Shown here: positions 155 through 5,689 of the stretch, piece after piece | Layout: each line of letters opens with the position of its first letter | Numbering within the stretch: position 1 is the stretch's first letter | From: Clostridia bacterium | GTDB taxonomy: Bacteria > Bacillota > Clostridia > Oscillospirales > Acutalibacteraceae | DNA: 55,150 nucleotides | Assembly (NCBI GenBank): GCA_017624675.1 | Contig: JAGAMO010000012.1 | Location: forward strand, 1 to 55,150 | Direction of reading: 5' to 3' | Program-made: the position numbers and the translations under genes | The notes under the pieces: generated by a model | What the model was told of the DNA's origin: nothing | Databases searched by the model: none | Seen by the model: the letters and a program-made list of their open reading frames with translations, nothing else

Positions 155-239
155 GGGAGATTTCCCGAGTGGCCAAAGGGGACAGACTGTAAATCTGCTG
201 GCTTCGCCTTCGGTGGTTCGAATCCACCATCTCCCACCA
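155..239 (+). tRNA. tRNA-Tyr (anticodon GTA)
   Basis: This is an 85-nt class II tRNA with a long variable arm. The acceptor GGGAGAT (155-161) pairs with ATCTCCC (229-235), and CCA is encoded at 237-239. The T arm is GGTGG-TTCGAAT-CCACC (212-228). The anticodon loop CTGTAAA carries GTA. The top pair of the anticodon stem (A182 with C198) is an A-C mismatch, where many bacterial tRNA-Tyr genes have G-C. Only 13 bases separate it from tRNA-Thr, so the two are co-transcribed. Confidence 0.95.
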
Positions 240-245
240 AAACAG

Positions 246-270
246 AAACCGACCAATAGGTCGGTTTTTT
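246..270 (+). terminator. Rho-independent terminator of the tRNA unit
   Basis: An ACCGACC / GGTCGGT stem with the loop AATA is followed by a run of T. It begins a few bases after the tRNA-Tyr CCA end and insulates the hairpin array downstream from tRNA transcription. Confidence 0.9.
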
Positions 271-283
271 GTTTTGGTGGAAC

Positions 284-458
284 TAAGTGTTTCGCAAGCG
301 AAACGATAAGCGCTTTCAGCGTGAAGTATCCTGCGGATGTGAAGTGTGCCTACGGCACGATTTGGAAGCGAAACACTTAACTTCACTTTGTGCGAAGCAC
401 AATACTTCATTATGCCGTAAGGCATAACTTCACGCAAGGCAAAGCCTTGCGCTTCACT
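284..458 (+). repeat. Array of seven short hairpins with GTGAAGT / ACTTCAC linkers
   Basis: The stretch is almost entirely perfect small hairpins: 289-304, 311-321, 328-338, 346-358, 388-402, 410-427 and 433-451. Stems are 4 to 8 bp and most loops 2 to 4 nt. In the left half the hairpins are joined by GTGAAGT (321-327, 339-345). In the right half the joints are the reverse complement ACTTCAC or close copies (380-386, 404-410, 427-433, 452-458). A 12-nt inverted repeat (284-295 with 368-379) brackets the left half. The array can therefore fold as one branched, roughly two-fold symmetric structure. It ends 40 bases before a four-helix-bundle gene. I recall similar hairpin arrays beside this gene family in other Firmicutes but cannot verify it here. 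It is not CRISPR, because there are no long identical repeats. Confidence 0.8.
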
Positions 459-475
459 AAAAATTATTGTATAAT
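447..475 (+). promoter_or_regulatory. Promoter of the four-helix-bundle gene, overlapping the last hairpin
   Basis: A perfect TATAAT lies at 470-475. Seventeen bases upstream is TTGCGC (447-452), a weak -35 box that lies inside the 3' arm of the last hairpin of the array (433-451). Extrusion or protein binding at that hairpin would compete with polymerase. The -10 is clear and the -35 assignment is tentative. Confidence 0.55.
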
Positions 476-498
476 ACAAATTAAAGGGAGTGGTACTA

Positions 499-849
499 AT
501 GTCCGAAAGCAAACTGCGTGATATGTCATTAGACTTTGCCGTATCAATCATTAATCTCGTCAAAGAACTTAAACTTAAGAAAGAAAATATCATCTCTAAC
601 CAAATCGGCAGAAGTGGCACTTCCATCGGCGCAAATATCCGCGAAGCGCAATATGCTCACGGCAAAGCAGACTTTATATCAAAACTCCAAATTGCCCTAA
701 AGGAAGCCAACGAAACAGGCTATTGGCTCGAACTTTTATATAAAACAAATTACATTGATGAAGCAACCTATAAAAATCTTGACTCGGCTTGCACCAGTAT
801 TCGTGTAATGCTGATTTCATCAGTAAACACAGTTAAATCTAAACAATAA
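499..849 (+). CDS. Four-helix-bundle protein (23S rRNA IVS / Avd-like family)
   Basis: The 116-residue product matches the small all-helical family named after proteins encoded in 23S rRNA intervening sequences (PF05635/TIGR02436). The typical core is present: IGRSGTSIGANIREA near residues 37-51, then a KADFISKLQIALKEANET helix. Family members form pentameric, basic four-helix barrels that bind nucleic acid. The related Avd protein assists reverse transcriptase in diversity-generating retroelements, but no reverse transcriptase or template repeat is present here. The ATG at 499 is chosen over an in-frame GTG at 490 because GGGAG sits at 486-490, 8 bases upstream. The gene is monocistronic between the hairpin array and a bidirectional terminator. 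The cellular role of such stand-alone copies is unknown. Confidence 0.85.
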   Translation: MSESKLRDMSLDFAVSIINLVKELKLKKENIISNQIGRSGTSIGANIREAQYAHGKADFISKLQIALKEANETGYWLELLYKTNYIDEATYKNLDSACTSIRVMLISSVNTVKSKQ

Positions 850-853
850 AAAC

Positions 854-889
854 AGCACCTGATTCCAAACTTGGTTTCAGGTGCTATTC
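854..889. terminator. Bidirectional terminator between convergent genes
   Basis: AGCACCTGA (854-862) pairs with TCAGGTGCT (877-885), and an inner CCAA/TTGG extends the stem. T-rich sequence follows on the plus side and A-rich sequence precedes it, so it can stop transcription both ways. The stop codon of the convergent xre gene lies inside it. Confidence 0.85.
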
Positions 890-5485: not shown

Positions 5486-5689
5486 CTTAAATTTATGCAG
5501 ATTGTCCGAGAATGTAAACGTCGGTGTTCTAATAAAATCAGCCGATTAAAAGACGAAATTCGAGAGGCAGCTAGAAGGTTTGTAACTAAATCCACACTTA
5601 CTTGTTGGTGAAATATTGCTCGTAATGTGAAATACACATACGGTGTGTGAAATCGCTACGACGGTGAGTTGATATTTATTATAAAAACC
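5486..5689. other. Decayed non-coding stretch
   Basis: The space between gtrA (ending 5348) and the next real gene (5746) is almost 400 bases. Apart from the thioesterase fragment it contains only short frames without ribosome binding sites. I see no RNA gene, repeat or terminator with confidence. Confidence 0.5.

Follow-up and report, generated by a model that had tools for sequence, protein, structure and literature searches.

The window analysed here is a stretch of 55,150 nt from a Clostridia bacterium of the family Acutalibacteraceae (contig JAGAMO010000012.1). It opens with a tRNA-Thr gene (66-141) and a tRNA-Tyr gene (155-239, forward strand). The tRNA-Tyr gene lies outside the unit described below and marks its insertion site, and the same site was seen in other species. 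It is followed by a hairpin with a T-run (244-269, forward strand) that is terminator-like on both strands, then by an array of small hairpins, and then by a gene for a four-helix-bundle protein. Arrays that we examined by eye usually begin directly 3' of such a terminator-like hairpin. At 2439-2477 of the window lies another symmetric hairpin of the terminator type, about 90% identical to several of these pre-array hairpins, and no array was read behind it.

The hairpin array and its gene

We found seven hairpins on the forward strand, at 289-304, 311-321, 328-338, 346-358, 388-402, 410-427, and 433-451 (hp1 to hp7), joined by a 7-nt linker whose orientation changes from GTGAAGT to ACTTCAC. 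A hairpin scan requiring at least 5 bp recovered five of the seven, while hp2 and hp3, with 4 bp each, fall below this limit and were identified by eye. All linkers are on the forward strand. A pattern search located the left linker GTGAAGT at 321-327 and 339-345, and the first left linker is a variant, GATAAGC, recognized by eye at 305-311. The right linker ACTTCAC, with which the orientation flips, was found by sequence and pattern search at 380-386 and by sequence at 427-433, and its variants ACTTCAT (404-410) and GCTTCAC (451-457) were recognized by eye. A sixth match of the hairpin scan (463-475) corresponds to the -10 region and lies outside the seven. In 300 Markov shuffles, the number of hairpins ranged from 0 to 5 (median 1). 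The pattern GTGAAGT-N-GTGAAGT-N-ACTTCAC has a single occurrence in the window and was absent from all of 100 window shuffles, and the fold of 270-475 has a z-score of -4.44, with no equally good fold in 200 shuffles. The sequence, the hairpin scan, and the shuffles thus confirm the seven hairpins and the flipping linker reported in a preliminary description of this DNA.

The array has a further feature that the preliminary description did not contain. Its left end (284-295, forward strand) is complementary both to the middle segment at 368-379 (forward strand), with which it forms a long-range stem, and partly to the local 3' arm of hp1. All three of these segments change in concert in the relative L193. 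A search of the genome for the exact linker pattern returned three matches, two in the window array and one likely due to chance, but the architecture recurs with other linkers. The view of the array as unique was rejected because of this recurrence.

The gene directly behind the array (499-849, forward strand, start ATG at 499) encodes a protein of 116 aa that matches PF05635 (E 1.6e-27) and TIGR02436, in agreement with its earlier reading as a stand-alone gene similar to those of rRNA intervening sequences (IVS) and Avd. PF05635 is the sole Pfam family found in this protein, which yielded no catalytic domain, and a PHROGs search with three proteins returned no family. An AlphaFold2 model of the protein has four helices (pLDDT 95). 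Its top structural matches were 2rld, from the S23 family of Bacteroides, and 2gsc, and Avd of a diversity-generating retroelement (4dwl) ranked behind them (TM 0.79, Foldseek E 0.11). A Xanthomonas relative was described as a homopentamer, and the sections of that report consulted give the family no known function (PMC4990558). In the consulted part of another report, PF05635 is treated as Avd-like (PMC10053308). Polar residues that are invariant across 34 sequences include N46, E49, D58, K62, K68, E69, and E72, and this invariance makes a functional surface on the protein likely.

A possible promoter for the gene, TTGCGC-17 nt-TATAAT (447-475, forward strand), was identified by eye. The preliminary description placed the -35 box within the last hairpin. 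The overlap with hp7 is real, and TTGCGC (447-452) matches the consensus at only three of six positions. TATAAT lies at 470-475, and the promoter at 447-475 is absent from the output of a promoter scan. The overlap is common to the window and its nearest relative, L193, and is absent in L051 and L053 (by eye). This bears on an alternative in which the array is mainly an operator or leader, the protein controls its own expression by binding linkers close to its promoter, and solo arrays are decayed copies. The position of the last linker and hp7 over the possible promoter in the window and L193 would suit such a role, whereas the likely promoter of L051 and L053 is placed further downstream (by eye). 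We consider this reading unlikely, also in view of the distribution of arrays described below.

Recurrence and borders of the unit

The genome of the window contains five PF05635 genes, and all of them have arrays of inverted short repeats (judged by eye and from the fold). Three, those of the window, L004, and L005, have full hairpin arrays, with other linkers in L004 and L005. L003 has a small linker-only array beside tRNA-Met, and L001 has heptads on both sides of the gene. A PF05635 gene was present in 57 of 70 genomes of the genus, in up to seven copies, and in 70 of 150 genomes of a family sample and 57 of 299 genomes of a phylum sample. We scored the flanks of these genes with a sequence-blind array detector, which looks for a 7-mer occurring at least twice followed by its reverse complement at least twice, at a spacing of 13-48. 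Of 148 distinct genes or gene fragments, 67 reached a score of at least 7 on their upstream side, compared with 2 of 148 Markov shuffles and 3 of 59 genomic control windows taken downstream. At a score of at least 6, the corresponding numbers were 94 of 148, 10 of 148, and 6 of 59. The cut-off of 7 is strict, because all five genes of the window's own genome stay below it (window, 6; L004, 5; L005, 6; L003, 4; L001, 0). We also analyzed a set of named genomes, comprising the best 80 of 579 confirmed loci, mostly from metagenome-assembled genomes (MAGs) of rumen and gut Clostridia, of which four were too short. Here, 57 of 76 loci scored at least 7, and 53 of 76 had a co-oriented tRNA gene within 700 nt upstream, a count that has no control set. 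Similar stretches of terminator and array were found by eye behind different tRNAs.

The linker was found to follow the protein. Across 61 automatically chosen arrays, linker similarity correlated with protein identity (Mantel r 0.55, p<=2e-4), and the correlation held among pairs located beside different tRNAs (642 of 666 pairs, 37 arrays; Mantel r 0.59, p<=2e-4). Array and gene may travel as a single unit, or the protein may read the linker, and most likely both apply, although the co-variation may also reflect joint descent of the unit instead of binding. Changes of layout class on the protein tree numbered 30, a count without a shuffle control that is left out of the evidence.

The borders of the unit were defined by comparison with related loci. 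The nearest relative, L193 in genome G030, encodes a protein with 95% identity, and its DNA is 86% identical over window positions 278-859. No blastn match to L193 was found outside this range in matches starting from position 241 on, and a separate alignment of window positions 201-300 found no tRNA-Tyr end in L193, whose left flank ends in a stretch resembling a tRNA 3' end. The tRNA-Tyr site of G030 itself (L147, about 138 nt behind the tRNA) carries a plain terminator and no array. Conversely, the right flank of the window unit (845-1151) continues at the tRNA-Tyr locus L165 of genome G035 with 87% identity, where the unit is absent and a small linker-only array stands in its place. G035 (72% complete) has no PF05635 match. 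The right border falls at 845-859, at the stop codon, because these 15 nt are common to L193 and L165. The match to L193 and the unit-less site L165 thus delimit a co-mobile unit of array and PF05635 gene at 278-850 on the forward strand, with its right border within 845-859. A decayed copy occupies the same site in L152 (G005), where a left array half, with a different linker, and the 3' end of the gene are followed by the same right flank. L167 (G025) also has the right flank of the window and is weaker evidence, because the shared flank lies more than 500 nt beyond its tRNA-Tyr.

We scanned tRNA-Tyr loci with the spacing limit loosened to 7, which left 37 loci with enough sequence after seven that were too short had been excluded. 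Twelve of the 37 scored at least 7, with different repeats, and 25 scored below 7, including the window at 6, counts that have no control set. Other species leave the terminator site behind tRNA-Tyr empty or fill it with arrays of other linkers. One could argue that selection maintains the arrays as insulators or terminators that separate tRNA genes from promoters further downstream, with the PF05635 gene as a passenger, and the placement of many arrays, solo arrays among them, with a tRNA terminator on one side and a promoter-like stretch on the other (by eye) would fit. We regard this as highly improbable, as the linker tracks the protein even beside different tRNAs and 25 of the 37 tRNA-Tyr loci, the window among them, score below 7. 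By these comparisons, array and gene behave as one unit that seems to move between tRNA-adjacent sites in gut bacteria. The pairing of array and gene is real and recurrent, and of the options raised in the preliminary description the best fit is a selfish element that carries its own helper. Against a mobile element, the unit encodes no nuclease, recombinase, or reverse transcriptase (RT), and a clean target-site duplication was not found at the window unit, where only 845-859 is common to L193 and L165.

Several further arrangements were observed. At L044 and L050, a heptad-flanked PF05635 gene lies beside tRNA-Leu, and the 5' part of the tRNA (44 and about 23 nt) is repeated on the far side of the gene in the manner of a target duplication. 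At L015 and L023, a near-identical array is present both upstream and downstream of the gene (by eye), which looks as though arrays can multiply by themselves. A heptad-flanked PF05635 gene lies immediately before the tmRNA gene at L042 (G170:C27). The interval between tRNA-Thr and tRNA-Tyr in L160-L172 holds a different element of about 160 nt behind tRNA-Thr, which ends in 18 nt that repeat the 3' end of tRNA-Thr (by eye), and L169 seemingly contains a second, partial copy of it (by eye).

Gut-1 matches, solo arrays, and stem pairing

Comparison with Rfam indicates that arrays of this type are full-length forms of Gut-1 (RF01706), with two halves that match the family on opposite strands. 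The published description of Gut-1 (PMC2864571), in the part consulted, presents it as a probable noncoding RNA represented only by environmental (human gut) sequences. In the window, both halves match below the cut-off of 50 bits, the left half on the forward strand (301-368, 24.5 bits) and the right half on the reverse strand (375-459, 25.2 bits). In L048, the left half is above the cut-off (55.8 bits) and the right half scores 41.6 on the opposite strand. In G001:C15 (69.3 and 56.7 bits), G012:C21 (67.1 and 52.5 bits), and G025:C18 (73.3 and 52.1 bits), the two halves match on opposite strands and each is above the cut-off. Read by eye, the full element consists of a terminator, a left end, four hairpins on linker X, a middle segment, and three hairpins on the reverse complement of X.

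Gut-1 is widely dispersed in the genus. Matches at E<=0.01 occurred in 59 of 70 genomes, with up to 35 in a genome, and 47 genomes had matches above the cut-off, while among 14 control genomes two had a match at E<=0.01 and none had one above the cut-off. The genome of the window has 13 matches at E<=1 in nine places. Five are above the cut-off, one of which is a solo left half between other genes at 5583-5658 of the window (forward strand, 56.8 bits), with no right half read behind it. Most of the arrays listed are solo yet associated with the helper gene, because 137 of the 150 Gut-1 matches listed had no PF05635 match within 2 kb on the contig (contig ends may hide some) and 13 did, compared with about 1.4 expected. 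Copy numbers of Gut-1 and PF05635 correlated across genomes (Spearman 0.54, p 1e-6, on raw counts that ignore genome size, completeness, and kinship), with a mean of 8.2 Gut-1 matches in the 57 genomes with the gene and 1.8 in the 13 without it. Some genomes are rich in arrays and poor in helpers, such as G016 (32 matches, one gene) and G043 (64% complete; eight matches, no gene).

These numbers also bear on the operator reading. Among the matches listed, Gut-1 within 500 nt of PF05635 was upstream of the gene in nine of nine cases, as an operator would be. The 137 solo matches and the heptad-flanked genes of other lineages, which lie inside, between the two halves, speak against self-regulation as the main function of the array, and this suggestion of the preliminary description is not supported.

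We examined the stems by comparing cognate with non-cognate arms in segments cut by linkers only. Both strands were scanned, so the left and right rows mirror each other. This comparison replaced a MAFFT alignment of seven window-type arrays, which misaligned the variable hairpins. For the linker GTGAAAT (340 segments, 71 arm sequences), the outer four arm positions formed Watson-Crick pairs in 92% of cognate and 30% of non-cognate arms. Three other linker groups gave 80-82% and 28-34%, respectively. The compensatory changes in the stems are therefore very strong. By hairpin detection, about 97% of stem pairs were Watson-Crick, and the mismatches on the sense strand comprised 35 G-T and 9 A-C. 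A second count gave 91 against 92, and it says nothing about the strand because every array was counted from both strands. The G-T excess hints at folding of the sense single strand.

Such an excess, together with the Rfam match itself, would fit if the array were a host noncoding RNA, as Gut-1 is filed, with the protein as its RNA partner. Set against it are the position of the array directly behind a terminator in the loci examined, the similarity of the two strands, with each half matching Gut-1 on its own strand, the copy number of 0-35 within one genus, and the presence or absence of the array at one and the same site. We therefore find this interpretation rather improbable.

Another interpretation is a retroelement that borrows an RT in trans, with the protein acting like Avd. 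The Avd fold, the discussion of PF05635 as Avd-like (PMC10053308), and the repetition of the 5' part of tRNA-Leu to either side of L044 are compatible with it. No more than 17 of the 70 genus genomes had an RT match (RVT_1), and RT showed no association with the number of Gut-1 matches (p 0.32) or the presence of PF05635 (p 0.50). Genomes G016 (99% complete, with its 32 Gut-1 matches) and G041 (97% complete, 29 matches) are free of RT. The RT partner considered in the preliminary description is not supported, and this interpretation is very unlikely. RT hijack as a general route is likewise unlikely, given the RVT_1 search of the 70 genomes and the array-rich, near-complete genomes without RT.

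A wider heptad family and comparison with known systems

In the phylum sample, the flanks of PF05635 genes have a period of seven. Self-identity at lag 7 was 0.45 upstream and 0.41 downstream of 31 genes, compared with 0.25 in the control, and at other lags of 3-20 that are not multiples of 7 it was 0.22-0.32 in the PF05635 flanks. The flank detector scored at least 7 in 23 of 34 genes, of which L278, L280, and L296 come from named genomes, and in 16 of 170 shuffles. Four phylum genes (L351, L357, L362, and L363) lie inside 23S rRNA, as classical IVSs do. Excision from the transcript by RNase III is a defining trait of that class. In L360 (G265:C1, match 1229-2003), a PF05635 gene with inverted heptads is located within a loop of RNase P RNA, on a stem that we take to be P12, and represents an intervening sequence outside rRNA. 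In L280, from a MAG labelled Acholeplasmataceae, the gene lies between hairpin half-arrays that have the linkers of the window, which ties the layout with the array before the gene to that with the gene between the halves. We think that the window linker is the heptad unit of an IVS-like family, with hairpins inserted between the repeats. The elements seem to prefer the borders and loops of structured RNA genes. This would recall the view of IVSs as tolerated because the RNA survives cutting.

Taken together, it is probable that positions 278-850 of the window are a minimal mobile element of the rRNA-IVS kind, made of a heptad-hairpin array and a gene with the Avd/S23 fold, with solo arrays as its non-autonomous copies. 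In the proposed mechanism, the inverted array of the 7-nt unit (GTGAAGT / ACTTCAC) would be the cis part, with hairpins that space the repeats, and the Avd/S23-fold protein would be the product of the sole gene of the element. The Avd-like protein probably reads its own heptad. A ring of the protein, with five subunits in the Xanthomonas relative, may bind the heptads of its own array, which the hairpins may display side by side on a single strand or a cruciform, and host enzymes could then copy or insert this complex of protein and heptads. In this view, Gut-1 RNAs and other arrays without a gene would be non-autonomous copies that can be served in trans, and the 23S rRNA IVS would be an element of the same kind that carries the gene inside and has no hairpins separating its repeats. 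A broader proposal, which we offer tentatively and which falls somewhat short of probable, is a large and so far unrecognized superfamily that unites rRNA IVSs, Gut-1, tRNA-flanking arrays, and heptad-flanked PF05635 genes. Here, a ring of the S23/Avd fold would read 7-nt repeats and place the element at structured RNA genes, in the loops of rRNA and RNase P RNA and on the 3' sides of tRNAs, without a transposase or RT.

No paper joining PF05635, heptad arrays, and Gut-1 was found in the open-access literature searched. Joining the S23/IVP proteins, which have solved structures and no known function, with Gut-1, described in 2010 without a function, would give the proteins a concrete candidate target, their own heptad, and would give Gut-1 an explanation. 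It would also turn the element into a testable example of spread by means of one small protein, with no recognizable recombinase. In addition, such arrays may confuse repeat-array finders and small-RNA annotation. The label '23S rRNA IVP' appears in a figure of new CRISPR adaptation module associations, in the consulted part of a survey whose pipeline also took other repeat arrays (PMC10910872). One idea, offered only as such, is that hairpin or heptad arrays might have been mistaken for repeat arrays there.

Among known systems, REPIN/RAYT also has inverted short palindromic repeats, dispersed copies, and a helper gene beside some of them, as described in the portion of the report consulted (PMC3116915). 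In our case, the helper is a four-helix-bundle protein in which no transposase domain was found, and what repeats is the 7-nt linker, while the hairpins that it joins are free in sequence. Diversity-generating retroelements share the fold of their Avd with the protein, as the match to 4dwl indicates, but no RT lies beside the gene, the single RT of its own genome is on contig C34, and 53 of 70 genomes of the genus have no RT match. Miniature elements (MITEs) are marked by terminal inverted repeats and a target-site duplication. Inverted repeats are present here, while duplication-like repeats were recognized only near tRNA-Leu (L044 and L050) and none at the window unit. The intergenic TAACTGA repeats of Beggiatoaceae, cyanobacteria, and Bacteroidetes are direct heptads, and their authors discuss a repeat-binding protein as a possible mobile element. 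The terms S23, four helix, and intervening are absent from the portion of that text consulted (PMC4679880).

Close likenesses also exist to Gut-1 and the 23S rRNA IVS. The preliminary description could name no known element class for the pairing. This was half right, since the halves of such arrays are Rfam Gut-1 and the 23S rRNA IVSs share PF05635 and inverted heptads. Both halves of the arrays of relatives match Gut-1, on opposite strands, but Gut-1 as filed covers only half of a two-sided element, and the window array remains below its cut-off. The unit differs from the 23S rRNA IVS in that it lies behind tRNA-Tyr, with no rRNA found by Rfam in the window, in that it has hairpins between the heptads, and in that its gene is outside the array, with a possible promoter of its own. 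The inverted linkers and long-range stem of the window may correspond to the complementary ends of the IVS, but they stand beside the gene and not around it. With the IVS the unit shares the protein family (PF05635, TIGR02436), a scattered distribution, and inverted heptads with a period of 7. The unit thus links an orphan RNA family, a protein without a function, and selfish inserts long known from rRNA genes.
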